From Bacteroidaceae bacterium (lineage in GTDB: Bacteria > Bacteroidota > Bacteroidia > Bacteroidales > Bacteroidaceae), in NCBI GenBank assembly GCA_017466325.1, contig JAFTUK010000003.1, positions 1 to 64,000 of the forward strand: DNA of 64,000 nucleotides. The letters are read 5' to 3'. Made by a program: the position numbers and the translations under genes. The notes under the pieces were generated by a model. That model searched no databases. It was given only the letters and a program-made list of their open reading frames with translations, and was not told where the DNA came from. Below, one piece after another: positions 49,195-55,157 of this stretch; within the stretch, counting starts at the first letter, position 1, and each line of letters starts with the position of its first letter.

Positions 49195-50460
49195 ATGGAC
49201 ATCAAACTTCTAGTCTTAGACGTTGACGGCACTCTGCTGAACAGCAACCGCGAAATGAGCGAACGTACCGTCAAAACACTGAAGAAAGTACAACAGAACG
49301 GTGTACGCGTTGCCCTGGCCACAGGCCGTCCCACATACGGTGTACTGCCATTCGCCAAGGCCATAGACCTGGACTTCAACGACGGTTTCATCATCAGTTA
49401 CAACGGAGCCAAGGTGCTGGAAGCCAGCACCGGCAAGGCTATATTTGAAAGAACCATAGACCCCAAGATGGTGCCCTACCTGGAGAAGCAGGCCCAACGT
49501 TGCGGTTGTGCCCTTGCCTACTATGAGGGAGACGAGGTAGTGGCCACAGATACCACCAACCCCCGCATCGTGGACGAAGCACAGATGAACAACATGGCAC
49601 TGCGCCACGTCGACAGCATTTCCGAGGCCATGGCACATCTGGAAGACAACAAGGAAGCCTGGCCCACAGAGGTTATCTTCGTACACGAGGACGAACAAGT
49701 CCTGCTTGGCATGGAGGAGCATCTGCAACGCCACCTGAACGGTGTCATGGACACCATCCATTCCAACCCCTACTATCTGGAAATAGTCGGTTATCAGGTG
49801 GGCAAGAGCCATGCCATGAGTGCCCTGGTGCAGAAACTGGGCATCAGCATGAAGGAGGTCCTTGCCTTTGGCGACGGACGCGCCGACATCAACATGCTGC
49901 AGATGGCCGGCATGGGCATTGCCATGGGCAACGCACCCGAGGAGGTGAAGCGCTGTGCCGACTATACCACCCTTTCCAACGACGAGGACGGTGCGGCACT
50001 TGCCATAGAACGCGCCTTCGAAGAAGAGCAGGAGAAACCCGAGGACGATCAGGAAGTTCCCGTTGACGTACTGAACGCCCAGAACAAGAACACCCTGATG
50101 GGCGCCCTGGGCATGCAATACACCTTTGCCAGTCCCCACCGCGTGGAAGCCACCATGCCCGTAGACGGACGCACACGCCAGCCCTTCGGCATCCTGGCAG
50201 GCGGAGCGTCACTGGCCCTGGCGGAAACTCTGGCCGGTCTTGGCAGCATGATAGCATGCAAACCAGGCGACATGGCCGTGGGTATGCAGGTATCAGGCAA
50301 CCATGTCTCCAGCGCTCACGACGGAGACACCGTGCGCGGTGTTGCCACTCCCGTACACCTGGGGCGCTCCAGTCACGTGTGGAACGTACAGATATTCACC
50401 TCCACAGGCAAACTGGTAAGTTCCGTTACGGTAACCAACTCCATCATGAGCAAGAGGTAA
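49195..50460 (+). CDS. HAD (Cof-type) phosphatase fused to a hotdog-fold thioesterase
   Basis: 421 residues in two domains. Residues 1-275 are a HAD-IIB Cof-type hydrolase: motif I LDVDGTLL (Asp-9, Asp-11), LATGRPTYG, Lys in VGKSHAM and FGDGRADINML. A charged linker (about 276-295) leads to residues 296-421, a PaaI/MenI-like hotdog thioesterase with QPFGILAGGASLALAETLAG (predicted catalytic Glu-344) and HLGRSSHVWNVQIF. Relatives of the second domain hydrolyse 1,4-dihydroxy-2-naphthoyl-CoA in menaquinone synthesis. In many relatives the GG pair is preceded by His; here it is Ala. A fused role in menaquinone synthesis is inference; no men genes are nearby. Confidence 0.85.
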   Translation: MDIKLLVLDVDGTLLNSNREMSERTVKTLKKVQQNGVRVALATGRPTYGVLPFAKAIDLDFNDGFIISYNGAKVLEASTGKAIFERTIDPKMVPYLEKQAQRCGCALAYYEGDEVVATDTTNPRIVDEAQMNNMALRHVDSISEAMAHLEDNKEAWPTEVIFVHEDEQVLLGMEEHLQRHLNGVMDTIHSNPYYLEIVGYQVGKSHAMSALVQKLGISMKEVLAFGDGRADINMLQMAGMGIAMGNAPEEVKRCADYTTLSNDEDGAALAIERAFEEEQEKPEDDQEVPVDVLNAQNKNTLMGALGMQYTFASPHRVEATMPVDGRTRQPFGILAGGASLALAETLAGLGSMIACKPGDMAVGMQVSGNHVSSAHDGDTVRGVATPVHLGRSSHVWNVQIFTSTGKLVSSVTVTNSIMSKR

Positions 50461-50582: not shown

Positions 50583-51060
50583 CTATTCCATGATTTCCCA
50601 GAAGCCGCCCCTATCAGGCCCTACACGACGGAGGTACTTATCTCGCATTACATTAATATTGTTACTGATAGCCGTAACACTAATACCGATAGTTTTTGCC
50701 AATTCTGATTGAGAAATATATGGATTACCTGCGATTAAGCGCAATATGGCAATTCTGTTTTCAGTTAACTTGTCTCCGTTTCCTGTAGCCTTTTCTATCA
50801 ACTTTTCTATCAACCTATCTGGGTTTTCTATCAACTTTTCTATCAACCTATCCGAGTCTTCTATCAACTTTTCTGTTACCCTTGGGACAGAAACCTTCAA
50901 AATGAAATCATCGGTATGGAATGAAAGAGGTGCAGCACCATTCACTTCCAATTCACGATACATACGGTCAACACCCTCGCCATACTCCTTGACATAGTGA
51001 TAAGTCCAATATTTACAAGGTCCACACTACGTATATTCTCTATTCCTACTTGTTCCTTAA
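50583..51060 (-). pseudogene. Remnant of an AlbA_2 (Schlafen-type) RecG-like regulator
   Basis: The open part (stop at 50583, in frame up to about 51026) encodes only the C-terminal end. It begins CKYWTYHYVKEYGEGVDRMY, typical of the region after the AlbA/HATPase-like core. A LIEKLIE helical repeat of 11 residues and a C-terminal winged helix (LRLIAGNPYISQSELAKTIG) follow. Just upstream, another frame reads VGIENIR, matching the preceding part of such proteins, so a deletion with frameshift has occurred. The AlbA_2 N-terminus is gone. An ATG at 50963 could still give a 126-residue winged-helix peptide. A 23-codon frame at 51074-51145 (MEILLEKDICETLVLEDILE...) has no recognisable identity. Confidence 0.65.
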
Positions 51061-51150
51061 CTCTCGCCTTATCTTATGCGGAAAGTTCCAATATATCCTC
51101 CAGAACAAGAGTCTCACAAATATCTTTTTCTAATAAGATCTCCATATAAA

Positions 51151-52023
51151 TTATTCCTTAGGATGTAATTCTGCAAAAGTCTGTCCGTCACGATTCTTAA
51201 GTGCCGTAGGCCCTTGCATTGCTGTACCAGTTATTACTTCGGCAGGTAATGATGGCAATCCGCTCTCTACAGGGATATTAGTACTTTGAATAACTCTAAA
51301 AAGATTCCCTTCTCTTTTACAGAACTCATTGTCCTGTAAAAGTAAAGTTCTTACTTCCTTTGCTTTTTTTGAACAACTAGTTTCTATAGCAGAAATCAAA
51401 CTTCCTTCAAGCAGAATAAATTTTCTTGTTTGTGGAGAATACTGGAGTTTTGCAAAGATTCCTCGTCTCTTGACTTCAACAGTATATACTTCATTTATTT
51501 CTGTTTTTGCTGTATCAATTCTAGGATTATCAAATATTGCACATCCATAGAAACGAGTCAGGAACATAATTTCCTCAAAGAACAATTCCATATCATTCTT
51601 CTTGTCATCAGAAAGTCTCGGTTCCTTTATCGGCTTTGAATTTGTTATATGAAAATTATTGGCATCACAAGCTAATTTCCAGCCCAAATACTCTAAATAC
51701 TGAGTTTCACTCGCAAATATTTCATCTGCCTTTGATACAAAGACGAGCGCAACATCCCACCAATCATTCTTTTGTTTATGGTCGATAACTCTATCCGCAA
51801 AATCATTTGTTTGGCCGATATATGCCAAAGGGGCACCAATACCCATACTACCTACTAGTATATAAAAAGCGTATTTGCCAGCAAGGTATTCTTTACATAC
51901 CCTTGCCACAGAAGCACTAGGTAAGACAAAACATTGACACGTCTTTGTCGAACCCATATCAATAATTCGTGCTCCGTCCAAAGTACGGTCAAGCAACTTT
52001 GTATAAACTGTTAATATTGCCAT
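51151..52023 (-). CDS. GIY-YIG nuclease with DUF4357 domain
   Basis: 290 residues. The GIY-YIG fold starts near residue 50: YAFYILVG, PLAYIGQTNDFADRVIDHKQ and the Glu-bearing ASETQYLEYLGW, so the Tyr, Arg and Glu expected for catalysis are visible. The C-terminal part (YTVEVKRRGIFAKLQYSPQT through TALKNRDGQTFAELH) resembles DUF4357, often paired with nucleases. It is third in the minus-strand cassette, 30 nt after the DUF262-HNH gene, and has clearly lower GC than the housekeeping genes. A role in cutting DNA alongside the methyltransferase is inference. Confidence 0.82.
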   Translation of the reverse strand: MAILTVYTKLLDRTLDGARIIDMGSTKTCQCFVLPSASVARVCKEYLAGKYAFYILVGSMGIGAPLAYIGQTNDFADRVIDHKQKNDWWDVALVFVSKADEIFASETQYLEYLGWKLACDANNFHITNSKPIKEPRLSDDKKNDMELFFEEIMFLTRFYGCAIFDNPRIDTAKTEINEVYTVEVKRRGIFAKLQYSPQTRKFILLEGSLISAIETSCSKKAKEVRTLLLQDNEFCKREGNLFRVIQSTNIPVESGLPSLPAEVITGTAMQGPTALKNRDGQTFAELHPKE

Positions 52024-52053
52024 TGCTTTAATTTTATATTTCTTGCTTCAACC

Positions 52054-53172
52054 TTATCTACCTCCCTTCACCCTATTGCAATTCCTGCAAAGCATTTGGC
52101 AATTCTCTGCCACAGTAATGCCACCATCCTTCCATGGCGTGATGTGGTCAGCCTCCATTTCTTCCAATTCAAAGTGCTTTCCGCAATGCACACAGATACC
52201 ATTTTGCCTCTCGTATGCCTCTCGTTTCTGCTTTTTGTCGAACGAGCGGAAAGACAAATCACGCAAATCCCCACTCAACACATAACGATAGATACCTGAC
52301 TTTTTCTGTATCTCGTCATCCTCCATCAAGTCATGAATTTGCCTCTCAAGCGCATCAATATCGTAAATATTCTCGGCGAACTCGTCAAACATAGCGCCCC
52401 AGTCAAGTCCCTTCATCTCCTTACGGTAGTTGGGAAAGGTTGAGCGCACCCAAGTTATTATCTGCATATAATATGCCCATAATTTATTGGCATTTGGGTC
52501 GAACTGATGAATTGCCATATACTTGTCAATCGGTTTTTCATCGTGTATATTATCGTGACGAGCCGCCCACTTCAAGATGGTTTCAAGATAGGCCTGCTCT
52601 ACGGTATTTCCACTCATGTAGTCGCTACCGATCTTGTATGCAGGACAACCGTTCTTAGAAAAATGACGACGAGCATCTGTCACGAACGGACCAACATACA
52701 CCGCATTGCGCAACTCCTGATCAAATAACTTTTCGCCAGCAATATTGATTACACGAAACCAATCCAGTTTCTCTTTGTCCGTTCCGTTGCAGAAATACAC
52801 GGTCAGTTCATAGTTAAGAAATGCCTGTTTTTCGTCATCTGTTAGCGTATTAAAGAATAGTACTCCCCTATTCTTGTCAACTATGTTAAAGTCATGTGTA
52901 TAGAACTCGCAAATCGAAAGTGTGCGTTGCTGACCATCAATCATTTCAAATGTGCCATTCTCTCCCTCCGACCAATACATAATATTCAAAGGAAAGCCCT
53001 TCATTATTGTTTCTATCACGGCACGCTTCTGTTGTTCGTTATACCTGAACTCACGCTGATAAGTAGGACGCACATCAAGTTTACCGCCATAGGCACTAAC
53101 ACCTGTATCAGGGTCATTGCAATATCCATTTATTAGGTCGCGAATAGATATGGATTTAAGTTCTATTTTCAT
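52054..53172 (-). CDS. DUF262 and HNH nuclease protein
   Basis: 372 residues. The N-terminal DUF262 (GmrS/DndB-like ParB-fold) domain has the hallmark MIDGQQRTLSICEFY (residues 77-91) and TYQREFRYNEQQKRAVIETI. The C-terminal HNH domain (about 326-372) has CVHCGK, MEADHITPWKDGGIT and CRNCNRVKG, so the zinc Cys pairs and the DH catalytic pair are intact. Proteins of this type act in restriction of foreign or modified DNA. It starts 5 nt after the methyltransferase stop, so the two are almost certainly co-translated. Confidence 0.9.
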   Translation of the reverse strand: MKIELKSISIRDLINGYCNDPDTGVSAYGGKLDVRPTYQREFRYNEQQKRAVIETIMKGFPLNIMYWSEGENGTFEMIDGQQRTLSICEFYTHDFNIVDKNRGVLFFNTLTDDEKQAFLNYELTVYFCNGTDKEKLDWFRVINIAGEKLFDQELRNAVYVGPFVTDARRHFSKNGCPAYKIGSDYMSGNTVEQAYLETILKWAARHDNIHDEKPIDKYMAIHQFDPNANKLWAYYMQIITWVRSTFPNYRKEMKGLDWGAMFDEFAENIYDIDALERQIHDLMEDDEIQKKSGIYRYVLSGDLRDLSFRSFDKKQKREAYERQNGICVHCGKHFELEEMEADHITPWKDGGITVAENCQMLCRNCNRVKGGR

Positions 53173-53177
53173 AACAA

Positions 53178-54194
53178 CTACCTTTGGATTTTACGTATTA
53201 ATATCCTTTCATAAAGGCGGACCAATTCTCCATCCTTATCCAAATATAAACGAGGTCCACCATTTAATTTCCCCAATCTCTTCCTAATAATGTCCATATT
53301 TGCCAACTCCAATCCTATGCCAATTATTTCGAACTGGTCAGGGTTATATTTATCTATAAATGTAATTGGTACGCCCATTACACCATCATAATCACAAGGA
53401 ATATACTCTGTTCGTGATACCTCTATAGCATCATAGTTTACATACCTTGGATATTCTTCTGGAGCGTACAACTTGTACAAGATTAAATCTTCATGACGTT
53501 CCTTATAATCAAGATTAGTAAACCACCTTACACCCTTAACGCGAATATACTTTCGTCCTGTTTCATCAATACCACATCCCGCAGCATTTAGTCCGTAATC
53601 ATCTGGTACCCAGAATTTTCTATCTCCACTATGAATACTCGCGCCAAACCACATTCTATTACTTTGAATTAATGGAAATATTTCTTTATAAGACAATGCA
53701 TTTACATTTCCTATTATCAAAAACTTCTTATCATACGCCATTAACTGCGCCACGAACTCACGGAAAAGAGAAAAGGGAGGGTTGGTTACAACTATATCTG
53801 CCTCTTTAAGCAACTCGACACACTCGGCACTACGGAAATCGCCATCACCTTTAAGTGGTTGCACACCTATTTCCTCTACATCAGGTATACGATTACCATT
53901 CTTATCCCCTTCGTATATTAGGTACACAGCCTGCTCGCTCTTATTGGTGCTGAACAAGTCCATATCCTGATTCTTATAACAAGTAGTTATAAGTTTCTTT
54001 AATCCAAGATACTCAAAATTATAGGCGAAGTACGTGAAAAAGTTACTTACACGAGGGTCATCACAGTTGCACAATACAGTCTTACCTCGAAAATGTTCGC
54101 GGTAGTGGCGCATTTCATTATTGATATCTTCAAGCTGAGTATAAAACTCATCCTTCTTTGCCTCCTTGGCCTTGTTCAGATTCTTATTTGCCAT
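53178..54194 (-). CDS. EcoRI-family adenine-specific DNA methyltransferase
   Basis: 338 residues, close to M.EcoRI in length. The N-terminus NKNLNKAKEAKKDEFYTQLE is typical of the family. An AdoMet-site-like segment (KTVLCNCDDPRVSNFFTYFA) precedes the catalytic motif NPPF (residues 138-141, IVVTNPPFSLFREFV). It should transfer methyl to adenine N6; whether the target is GAATTC cannot be read. No EcoRI-like endonuclease is present. The neighbours are DUF262-HNH (5 nt downstream), GIY-YIG and an upstream XRE regulator. Confidence 0.9.
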   Translation of the reverse strand: MANKNLNKAKEAKKDEFYTQLEDINNEMRHYREHFRGKTVLCNCDDPRVSNFFTYFAYNFEYLGLKKLITTCYKNQDMDLFSTNKSEQAVYLIYEGDKNGNRIPDVEEIGVQPLKGDGDFRSAECVELLKEADIVVTNPPFSLFREFVAQLMAYDKKFLIIGNVNALSYKEIFPLIQSNRMWFGASIHSGDRKFWVPDDYGLNAAGCGIDETGRKYIRVKGVRWFTNLDYKERHEDLILYKLYAPEEYPRYVNYDAIEVSRTEYIPCDYDGVMGVPITFIDKYNPDQFEIIGIGLELANMDIIRKRLGKLNGGPRLYLDKDGELVRLYERILIRKIQR

Positions 54195-54304
54195 ATCCTT
54201 GTTGCTCTTCGTTATTTATCAACCCCTTTAGATGCAGTGTTTCATATAGAAATTCTTTTCAAAGGGGCCTTCACACTTAAATATCCCAAAACAGTGATTA
54301 TATA

Positions 54305-54413
54305 TCAATATGTGGGACAGTGTCTCACTTTTTTAACACCATCAATCCACTGATTGTAATCATCTGTCGCAACAGAGTTTTTTGTATAATCACACCCTTG
54401 CTCATACTCCTTG
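54305..54413 (-). pseudogene. Orphan protein-like frame after the XRE gene
   Basis: In the frame offset from the XRE gene, 35 codons without a start read CKEYEQGCDYTKNSVATDDY and then NQWIDGVKKVRHCPTY before a stop. The composition looks protein-like (Trp, Cys, Tyr spread) and overlaps the XRE 3' end. It may be a decayed C-terminus joined by frameshift, or chance. The rest of the 54195-54401 spacer shows nothing else. Confidence 0.3.
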
Positions 54414-54629
54414 CAACATCATATACTGCTTATACTCCCTTATGATCAGTTCTTTTATATCCACCTCCAACAGGTCTGCAATCTTAAGCAGGCTACTGAG
54501 GTCTGGTTGCGATGAATTTGTACACCATTTTGAGACGGTAGACGGGTTAACCCCCAACTGCTCTGCCAACCATTTATTGGTACGTTTTTTCTCAACTAAA
54601 ACTACTTTTATGCGGTTTATATCTTCCAT
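54402..54629 (-). CDS. XRE-family regulator of the methyltransferase cassette
   Basis: 75 residues. A single helix-turn-helix domain (KKRTNKWLAEQLGVNPSTVS then KWCTNSSQPDLSSLLKIADL) nearly fills the protein, as in controller (C) proteins of restriction-modification systems. It is first in the minus-strand cassette, 207 nt before the methyltransferase start. A 17-bp near-perfect palindrome lies 26 nt upstream of its ATG and is a likely operator. Control of the nuclease and methyltransferase genes is inference. Confidence 0.82.
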   Translation of the reverse strand: MEDINRIKVVLVEKKRTNKWLAEQLGVNPSTVSKWCTNSSQPDLSSLLKIADLLEVDIKELIIREYKQYMMLQGV

Positions 54630-54654
54630 AACTTTGTTCGTTTGTAAAAAAAGT

Positions 54655-54671
54655 AGTGAATTAATTTCACT
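54655..54671. promoter_or_regulatory. Palindromic operator candidate for the XRE regulator
   Basis: AGTGAATTAATTTCACT is palindromic at all positions but one, centred 34 nt upstream of the XRE start. Confidence 0.5.
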
Positions 54672-55157
54672 TTAACTGCATAAAGGCGGAATTATTTGGG
54701 CATTCACCATGCCTATTCATGACTATCTCCCGTTTCCAGTACCATTAAGCCCTCCTGCATTTCAATATTGCCACGGGTAAACCTGCGTTGTCTGTCCCTG
54801 CCCTACAACAGAATCAAAGCAAAATACAAGTAAGGGGAAATCGTAGTAATCTTTGTCGTGATAAAAAACGAAGACGATAAACCAGATTTCTTTAAGACGA
54901 CTTAAAGTGAAACTCTCGTATTCAGTCGAAACTCTCTATACGCTCATATCCAGTACAACTCCAACGTCAATATCCCCACACTCCGAGTAGGCAACACAGT
55001 TCCCCGATAAGGAAACTGGAGTTCTCTCGTTGGGGAACTGGAGTTTCCTTACTGGGGAACTGACTTGGCCTTACCATGCGTGTGTCATCGTTCAAAATGA
55101 ACAATGCATACACAAAAACGGGCACGGCCGTGTCCCTGCTGTTGCTGTCCTGCAAAA
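54672..55157. other. Spacer between the XRE regulator and the ribosomal operon terminator
   Basis: No convincing gene on either strand. It holds the 22-bp palindromic array (54997-55062). A further AGTGAAACT near 54908 looks like an operator half-site. A 16-bp near-palindrome, GGGCACGGCCGTGTCC, lies at about 55119-55134. Confidence 0.6.
54997..55062. repeat. 22-bp palindromic repeat array, copy 2
   Basis: GGAAACTG (55011), GGGAACTG (55033) and GGGAACTG (55055) recur every 22 bp with the inverted halves GAGTTCTC and GAGTTTCC between, and CAGTTCCCC at the left edge. Same design as 11567-11632. Confidence 0.85.

Follow-up and report, generated by a model that had tools for sequence, protein, structure and literature searches.

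How does a restriction-modification cassette choose its target when an adenine methyltransferase of the EcoRI family is accompanied not by the usual endonuclease but by a DUF262-HNH protein? The question is raised by a group of genes in the window, as we call the whole stretch of 64,000 nucleotides that was analysed. Below, the methyltransferase is referred to as M and the DUF262-HNH nuclease as R.

The cassette and its genomic surroundings

The preliminary description had named five genes on one strand, and all five were recovered at the same places on the minus strand (Table 1). The gaps it gave, 5 nt between M and R and 30 nt between R and the GIY-YIG-type gene, were measured again with the same result, and the cassette is indeed richer in AT, with a G+C content of 0.35-0.43 in 500-base steps against 0.42-0.59 in the flanks, where 19 of 23 steps have at least 0.46. 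Of the terminators claimed for both ends, one strong structure exists at 55197-55164 and belongs to rplQ, but no terminator call was obtained for the 50.5 kb end. The winged-HTH remnant, which we take to be a protein of the AlbA/COG2865 type, lies outside the M-R system. The inverted repeat overlaps the -35 element of a promoter-like site and is conceivably an operator; promoter-like matches are at the level of shuffled sequence (13 versus 13.7 in shuffles).

The genome of the window has a second M copy of its own. Within about 12 kb past rplQ, 11 congeners and two genomes of the same order contain neither a gene of the cassette nor a gene of the window's other flank (the contig of a twelfth congener was too short and was left out). 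The genomic site beyond rplQ is simply variable.

Table 1. Features of the cassette (positions in the window).
Feature	Coordinates	Strand	Evidence or remark
XRE/Cro-type regulator, 75 aa	54402..54629	-	HTH_26 4e-11
Inverted repeat GTGGGACAGTGTCTCAC	54312..54328	.	between XRE and M
EcoRI-family adenine methyltransferase (M), 338 aa	53178..54194	-	PF13651 1.6e-145
NPPF catalytic motif of M, aa 138-141	53772..53783	-	invariant in both alignments (A1, A3)
Variable block 1 of M, aa 185-223, putative target-recognition block TRD1	53526..53642	-	entropy peak
Variable block 2 of M, aa 292-329, putative TRD2	53208..53321	-	entropy peak
GmrSD_N(DUF262)-HNH nuclease (R), 372 aa	52054..53172	-	PF03235 3.7e-17; PF01844 1.2e-13
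DGQQR NTP-pocket motif of R, aa 79-83	52924..52938	-	invariant in 70 rows (A4)
HNH domain of R, aa 327-370	52063..52194	-	PF01844
GIY-YIG-type protein, 290 aa	51151..52023	-	PADLOC PDC-S14 1.2e-43
Winged-HTH remnant	50583..50963	-	HTH_24 7e-10

M and R form a near-obligate pair

Two scans with M yielded 160 loci (the best 80 from genomes and the best 80 viral ones), in which a nuclease was sought within 4 kb. R or a piece of it was found in 72 of the 80 best named genome loci. In the window's bacterial family, R adjoins M in 78 of 82 loci, and the four misses have at most 301 nt available downstream. The pair is common: of 251 genomes sampled from this family, 76 contain M, and judging by record titles it occurs across many phyla; the commensal Xylanibacter muris is one carrier of the pair. 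Searches made with R gave a matching picture. Of the viral loci obtained, 78 were new; two of them lacked an M frame, each with no more than 150 nt upstream. Of 22 full-length matches in a phylum search, one lacked it, and this match starts at contig position 213. On plasmids, 192 records match R, 42 of them over at least 80% of its length, and M stands beside R in both of the matches that were examined. The pairing is thus far beyond chance and near-obligate, and the core of the cassette is M plus R. An EcoRI-type nuclease stands beside M instead at four loci of the two scans (three of them distinct), in keeping with the earlier proposal of a non-standard restriction-modification system in which DUF262-HNH replaces the usual endonuclease. 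Neither nuclease was found within 4 kb of M in 31 of the 80 viral loci, three of which have less than 200 nt downstream, and at two distinct loci two M genes share one R.

The co-occurrence that had been expected of the whole neighbourhood holds for M and R but rarely for the other two genes, and the four-gene set is not conserved. In Pfam, the GIY-YIG-type protein stays below the threshold (GIY-YIG, E 0.07; DUF4357, E 0.19), and the PADLOC profile PDC-S14 covers residues 7-289 of its 290, a full-length profile match. None of the 160 scan loci has its gene next to M, and of the 81 other family loci L508 alone has it next to R; the protein in its slot there matches DUF4357 (1.3e-14) and weakly RAMA (4e-4). 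Because it is so seldom found beside M or R, we regard it as an accessory and not as a core component, and the idea that it is a second effector is not borne out. A phmmer search with the window's XRE protein detected a similar ORF in five of 82 family loci, the window included, which is too few for a core part; it is a possible controller in a minority of relatives.

Conserved motifs of R and variable blocks of M

R is matched nearly over its full length (residues 1-367, 6.5e-122) by the PADLOC profile REase_II (PDLC03418). Pfam finds GmrSD_N together with HNH/HNH_5 in R, and neither DUF1524 nor a helicase domain. Sequence-profile searches of solved structures gave matches to the HNH domain of R only and no relative of M. 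Residues D342, H343, N357, N366 and K369 of the HNH domain are invariant in 70 rows, and the catalytic and NTP motifs of the pair are intact. The invariant DGQQR, whose role as an NTP-pocket motif is described in PMC4619093 and PMC9646914, hints that R uses an NTP. In addition, R contains a YQR stretch (Y38, Q39, R40); among 125 aligned R sequences, Y38 is near-constant and the other two residues show no variation.

The limits of the two variable blocks of M were set from the entropy profile. Block 1 falls into discrete classes and is conserved in those M that are paired with the EcoRI nuclease. When classes were formed by single linkage at 60% identity, the set of 155 M-R pairs contained 40 classes of block 1 and 87 of block 2. 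Twelve of 13 multi-member classes of block 1, and 22 of 28 of block 2, are joined to at least two classes of the other block. The window's block 2 has a sole fellow in its class in this set, the second copy in the same genome; in the family set, locus L529 reaches an identity of 0.61. The two recognition-like blocks reassort and, next to a constant R, vary almost without constraint. At one locus (L077), both blocks are of the EcoRI class although the partner of M is a DUF262-HNH protein.

Where specificity lies

The location of specificity was assessed on the 155 M-R pairs, which are the best-scoring loci and form locus pairs that are not independent of each other. Over this set, the Spearman correlation with R identity is 0.60 for the M core, 0.07 for block 1 and 0.09 for block 2. 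At an R identity of 0.6-0.7 (3758 locus pairs), block identity is below 0.4 in 82% of the pairs for block 1 and in 97% for block 2. Among near relatives with an R identity of 0.8-0.95, at least one block falls below 0.4 in 304 of 325 pairs, and in DNA-level profiles of six pairs the stretches of lowest identity lie in the M blocks. EcoRI, the sole classical control, behaves differently: for nine M genes beside an EcoRI-type nuclease, none of 36 pairs falls below 0.4, and the lowest identities are 0.62 and 0.70 for the two blocks. Scores for coevolution between M and R (effective depth 148) reach 8.1 at best, compared with maxima of 5.6-10.1 in 20 shuffled pairings, and none exceeds the shuffles.

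As counterpoints to a specificity residing in M only, three observations should be mentioned. In a windowed partial correlation along R, no region tracks block 2, but for block 1 amino acids 231-260 attain 0.102, against a 95% line of 0.099. Within the bacterial family, block 1 follows R with a Spearman correlation of 0.37, well below the 0.89 of the M core. Finally, the blocks are identical in the five pairs with an R identity of at least 0.95.

Because the blocks change while R remains constant, unlike in EcoRI, it is unlikely that R reads the target site. Sequence specificity probably lies in M, and R probably acts as an effector gated by NTP, with either M or the m6A mark directing it.

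Proposed mechanism and alternatives

We propose, with about an even chance of being right, a two-gene restriction-modification system in which M alone sets the specificity through its two exchangeable blocks and R is an unvarying effector without site recognition of its own. M would find its site and methylate the cell's own DNA. At an unmethylated site it would engage R, whose DUF262 domain (DGQQR) would bind and hydrolyse an NTP and thereby permit cleavage by the HNH domain. An exchange in a single M block would retarget marking and cutting together, and therefore R would need no change. Several elements are our inference: the role of the blocks in specificity, the use of an NTP by R, protection by methylation and docking of R on M. 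The docking finds no support in the coevolution scores, which count against the proposal.

The indifference of R to the M blocks is also predicted if R, like SspE, reads a mark. R would then sense m6A in its DUF262 pocket regardless of sequence and without docking on M, the mark would drive NTP hydrolysis and license or release R, and unmarked DNA would be cut or nicked. SspE, a protein of the DUF262-HNH type, recognises a backbone modification and depends on DGQQR, as reported in PMC9646914 and PMC13251355. The YQR stretch of its reader site is present in R, and the coevolution scores give no sign of contact between M and R. However, YQR appears to be general among DUF262 proteins, which weakens this argument, and unrelated m6A marks would satisfy or mislead a reader that ignores the surrounding sequence. 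Moreover, phage Marchy carries a lone M whose blocks are 0.92 and 0.91 identical to those of a Gordonia plasmid system, which suggests that the site matters, although common descent would also explain the match. On balance we find such mark reading unlikely. A classical type II system, in which R and M each recognise the same site independently, would fit the M-then-R operon, the dependence of R on M and the REase_II profile, whose name, together with the annotation of the Prevotella intermedia member discussed below, implies it. It is nevertheless improbable: the blocks vary beside a constant R, the opposite of the EcoRI control, one R region tracks block 1 just at the 95% line and none tracks block 2, and one R is shared by two M genes at two distinct loci.

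That R might cut modified foreign DNA in the manner of a type IV system, with M as a bystander or decoy, is suggested by its nearest named N-terminal domain, GmrSD_N, as GmrSD cuts modified DNA according to PMC12707154. However, M is no bystander, since in the searches made with R it is lacking solely at contig ends; the lone M of viral loci fits a protective mark better, and the nuclease domain of R is HNH and not DUF1524 in Pfam. We therefore hold this to be very improbable. A four-gene system with GIY-YIG and XRE as required parts is hardly credible: the shared strand and tight spacing of all four genes in the window, and the R-then-GIY order repeated at L508, speak for it, but the scarcity of GIY-YIG beside M and R elsewhere speaks against it, as does the presence of other genes between M and R at some loci (Bro-N, Fic, or AAA_21 with a weak DUF4276 match).

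A member in Prevotella intermedia and implications

The remark in the preliminary description that no named system has this content is fair as far as the mechanism is concerned, but R matches a PADLOC type II profile and a member of the pair was listed as early as 2017. Pin25611FORF1345P of Prevotella intermedia ATCC 25611F consists of an M of 323 aa, a gap of 71 nt and an R of 367 aa that matches the R profile at 549 bits. Compared with EcoRI-paired M, its M has an identity of 0.57-0.70 in the core and 0.15-0.32 in the blocks. The methylome paper of 2017 (PMC5608340) lists it under type II with GAATTC as the predicted site and calls it inactive because GAATTC methylation was not seen. The published methylome of this strain has 11 m6A motifs. 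In the open-licence literature we found no description of M plus DUF262-HNH as a system. New here is the discriminating test of where specificity lies; the pair itself is already catalogued.

If our proposal is true, predictions of an EcoRI site for such pairs are wrong and the "inactive" call in P. intermedia has to be reopened. The pair would be a compact, retargetable restriction system and would explain how new specificities can emerge without the nuclease having to co-evolve. R, with its roughly 370 residues and no recognition site to itself, would also be a simple model for cutting directed by a methyltransferase or its mark.

Comparison with known systems

The M of EcoRI, which protects by m6A (PMC4081073), belongs to the same Pfam family as the cassette M. 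Its nuclease is unrelated to the GmrSD_N-HNH protein, the gene order is not the M-then-R of the cassette, and its recognition blocks are fixed whereas they are free in the M-R pair. At one locus (L127), an M with an EcoRI-type nuclease adjoining has blocks of the EcoRI class and a core that falls outside the main EcoRI clade in a quick, unrooted and weakly supported tree, which we count in favour of the proposal. With type IIP systems the pair shares adjacent, separate M and R genes and an R that depends on M, as far as co-occurrence indicates; the indirect sequence test argues against an R that recognises the M site by itself.

SspE, BrxU and GmrSD join a DUF262-type domain with DGQQR to a His-Me finger nuclease (PMC10952713, PMC9646914). 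R has this domain and a C-terminal HNH-type nuclease in common with SspE, but it carries HNH (PF01844) in place of DUF1524, is about half as long as SspE and is tied to an m6A methyltransferase, whereas the others are tied to a PT machine or have no partner. The partner of R is a PF13651 M, and no PT gene of the sspABCD set is among the five cassette genes of the window. From type IV GmrSD it is set apart by the lack of DUF1524 and by the presence of M, in the searches made with R, except at contig ends.

In type III Mod/Res systems, as described in PMC3874151, specificity lies in the methyltransferase and an NTP-needing nuclease takes its site from M; in BREX, the methyltransferase BrxX (PglX) with its TRD senses unmodified DNA (PMC11842806). 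BREX differs from the present two genes with their plain nuclease, and the window's cassette contains no other BREX gene. Specificity in M with a constant R, as in type III, is what the sequences suggest here too, but the present M is an EcoRI-family enzyme whose two blocks are separate, and R is a GmrSD_N-HNH protein of 372 aa in which Pfam finds no helicase domain. The R subunit of type III combines a helicase-type ATPase with a PD-(D/E)XK nuclease, which R does not. Tentatively, and with slightly less than even confidence, we consider the pair a separate kind of restriction-modification: the halves of a two-module M would reassort, one unchanging NTP-gated R would cut where M points or where the mark is missing, and a swap of about 40 residues would retarget the system, the EcoRI M being a member of the same family whose blocks a site-reading nuclease would hold fixed. 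The logic proposed for M and R would thus resemble that of type III Mod/Res and BREX BrxX, built from other parts.

Pairing of the methyltransferase with a DUF262-HNH nuclease

The unit is an EcoRI-family adenine methyltransferase (M) together with a GmrSD_N(DUF262)-HNH nuclease (R). A profile of R gave 22 full-length matches in the 395 genomes searched in the phylum, and a wide gap in score sets these (at least 429 bits) apart from other DUF262 proteins (at most 92 bits). M adjoins 21 of the 22, once as a fragment; the sole R without M begins at position 213 of its contig, and two R genes have internal stops. An M frame was also found at 76 of the 78 new R loci of viral contigs, the other two having at most 150 nt upstream.

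The M domain, PF13651, is present in 20 of the 395 genomes. Of the 20 stretches around the better PF13651 matches, 16 have R within 4 kb of M (broken in two of them), two have an EcoRI nuclease homologue near M, and two showed neither near M, one of them at a contig end. Among the best 80 of 568 relatives in named genomes, 72 loci have a whole or partial R no more than 4 kb from M and one has an EcoRI-type nuclease near M; two loci lack an M frame of at least 270 aa, and at five neither partner was found near M, four of these having less than 1.6 kb of downstream sequence. In the window's bacterial family, M occurs in 76 of 251 genomes (38 of 101 in the genus). R is on the strand of M in 78 of the 82 family loci read, which come from the best-scoring matches and include the window and the second copy in its host genome; the remaining four have at most 301 nt downstream. 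On viral contigs M without R is common: neither partner lies within 4 kb at 31 of the best 80 loci, three of which have less than 200 nt downstream.

Variable blocks of M

In alignments of M, two hypervariable blocks (aa 185-223 and aa 292-329, window numbering) stand out from a conserved core. Because the entropy profile of these alignments was also used to set the block limits, the evidence lies in the contrast with EcoRI-paired M genes and not in block variability as such. Identities are bimodal for block 1; for block 2 they peak at low values with a tail reaching high ones, and the blocks therefore come in classes. Single linkage at 60% identity gave 40 classes for block 1 and 87 for block 2 among 155 M-R pairs (of 156 unique ones, one was left out because its blocks were short). 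Twelve of the 13 block-1 classes with at least two members are joined to two or more block-2 classes, as are 22 of the 28 such block-2 classes to two or more block-1 classes. In these combinations, the blocks behave like reassorting target-recognition modules.

Nuclease identity and block identity

An R that recognised the site on its own, in the manner of EcoRI, would be expected to change along with the blocks. Across the 155 pairs, most of them from best-scoring matches and the locus pairs not independent, the Spearman correlation with R identity is 0.60 for the M core, 0.07 for block 1 and 0.09 for block 2. At R identities of 0.6-0.7 (3758 locus pairs), 82% have block 1 and 97% block 2 below 0.4 identity; at 0.9 or more (13 pairs), the corresponding shares are 77% and 85%. 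In contrast, the only classical control, a set of nine M genes from plasmids, viral contigs and genomes that adjoin an EcoRI-type nuclease, shows identities of 0.62-0.95 in block 1 and 0.70-0.95 in block 2 at nuclease identities of 0.58-0.91; in all 36 pairs the blocks are more alike than the core, and values below 0.4 do not occur. Five loci were excluded from this control: L043 and L347 because their R is partial, L167 because it duplicates L166, L356 because its EcoRI-type nuclease adjoins a methyltransferase other than M, and L346 because no M was found.

Within the window's family, at R identities of 0.80-0.95, at least one block is below 0.4 in 304 of 325 pairs. The window's closest relative in the family set (L522) is 89% identical in R, 97% in block 1 and 26% in block 2. 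In the five family pairs whose R identity reaches at least 0.95 the blocks are the same, and the family Spearman with R is 0.37 for block 1 and far higher, 0.89, for the M core. DNA profiles of six pairs have their lowest stretches within the blocks; the drop is sharp for pairs such as L513/L514 (0.95 to 0.47) and gentler for pairs such as L467/L471.

To look for a reading region hidden in R, a windowed partial correlation was run along the protein, with a permuted 95% line as threshold. No R window follows block 2 (peak 0.062, line 0.079). For block 1 the result is borderline at one place, aa 231-260 (peak 0.102, line 0.099), and no window outside it reaches the line.

In a quick M-core tree, the EcoRI-paired genes do not fall on one side of any branch; one of them (L127) stands apart from their main group, yet has blocks of the EcoRI class. 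By these comparisons, the EcoRI-type nuclease accompanies EcoRI blocks whatever the core, and the DUF262-HNH nuclease any blocks. At L077 both M blocks are of the EcoRI class, yet the partner is DUF262-HNH, with a Bro-N gene in between; this locus is a ready test case for GAATTC methylation.

The Prevotella intermedia system

The methylome paper on P. intermedia ATCC 25611F (PMC5608340) describes an EcoRI-like M (51% identical) that is followed by a nuclease gene, with GAATTC as predicted target; no GAATTC methylation was found there, and the system was called inactive. The published coordinates coincide exactly with open frames in the genome compared here: an M of 323 aa and, after a gap of 71 nt, an R of 367 aa that scores 549 bits with the DUF262-HNH profile. 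Compared with EcoRI-paired M, identity is 0.15-0.28 in block 1, 0.24-0.32 in block 2 and 0.57-0.70 in the core. What was published as an inactive GAATTC type II system is an M plus DUF262-HNH pair with non-EcoRI blocks. The block reading predicts just such a lack of methylation at GAATTC; it is also possible that the system is truly inactive.

The cassette and its accessory genes

Coordinates of the cassette, its surroundings and related loci
Feature	Location	Strand	Remarks
XRE regulator	54402-54629	minus	first gene of cassette order
M, EcoRI-family adenine methyltransferase	53178-54194	minus	PF13651, 1.6e-145
R, GmrSD_N(DUF262)-HNH protein	52054-53172	minus	matches GmrSD_N and HNH
GIY-YIG-type protein	51151-52023	minus	PADLOC PDC-S14, 1e-43
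Winged-HTH remnant	50583-50963	minus	last gene of cassette order
rplQ terminator	55197-55164		
Inverted repeat	54992-55067		33-nt arms, 82% complementary; between rplQ terminator and XRE gene
HAD-family hydrolase/4HBT thioesterase	49195-50460		both domains fused in a single frame
Second M-R pair of host genome (L031)	G000:C31:1743-4048		complete; more distant subfamily
P. intermedia M-R pair (L559)	G821:C1:303512-305658		
Slot between M and R	L062:7138-9026		
Two M genes with one R	L153:4899-8185		same contig as L273
EcoRI-class blocks with DUF262-HNH	L077:5989-8885		

The cassette is richer in AT than its flanks, as the preliminary description had it. The terminators which it placed at both ends reduce to one, which is rplQ's own; none was called at the other end. 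In the 155-pair set, the block-2 class of the window has one further member, block 2 of the host genome's second pair, with 91 of 129 nt identical.

The cassette genes other than M and R are accessories. GIY-YIG follows R at only one other family locus, L508, where the protein has DUF4357 and a weak RAMA match; the same search found none at L509, whose R is 98% identical. The M-R gap is a recurrent slot for other genes (L062, L032, L052, L075, L077, L086, L102): Bro-N, Fic with HTH, and AAA_21 with a weak DUF4276 match. Pfam was run on one of the three Fic-type genes, that of L075; L086 and L102 were assigned by similarity to it. Two M genes with one R occur at three of 373 loci with a match, two of them distinct (L153, sharing its contig with L273, and L329); at L153 the M genes overlap, are 35% identical in block 1 and have R in common. 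The Enterococcus faecium plasmid pBN83-1 (L348) carries an intact M-R pair near annotated erm(A) and optrA.

Mechanism and relation to known systems

The DGQQR and HNH residues of R are conserved without exception in 70 aligned proteins; DGQQR is the NTP pocket of GmrS and SspE (PMC4619093, PMC10952713, PMC9646914). We favour a model in which M would supply the specificity and R would act as its NTP-gated effector. An alternative that comes close behind has R itself reading the m6A mark, in the way that SspE does phosphorothioate. A coevolution test for M-R contact gave nothing beyond shuffled pairing, so that docking of R on M in the favoured model is something we infer.

Methylation presumably protects, because R depends one-sidedly on M and lone phage M genes exist. 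Both blocks of the lone M of Mycobacterium phage Marchy match a Gordonia plasmid system (0.92 and 0.91), which may reflect descent as much as function. Among 36 M genes without intact R (four with an R fragment), there are four whose two blocks both match those of a single paired or EcoRI M; these include a duplicate pair of the EcoRI class (L193/L194) and a near-copy (L157).

The pair is already known as a putative type II system, in PADLOC, whose REase_II profile PDLC03418 covers R residues 1-367 (6.5e-122), and by name in one methylome paper. Searches of open-licence literature found no account of M plus DUF262-HNH as a system, nor of its specificity logic. From its sequences, the pair would be a variant of restriction-modification and stands a fair chance of representing a kind of its own. 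The favoured model of M and R shares its logic with type III systems (PMC3874151) and BREX (PMC11842806).
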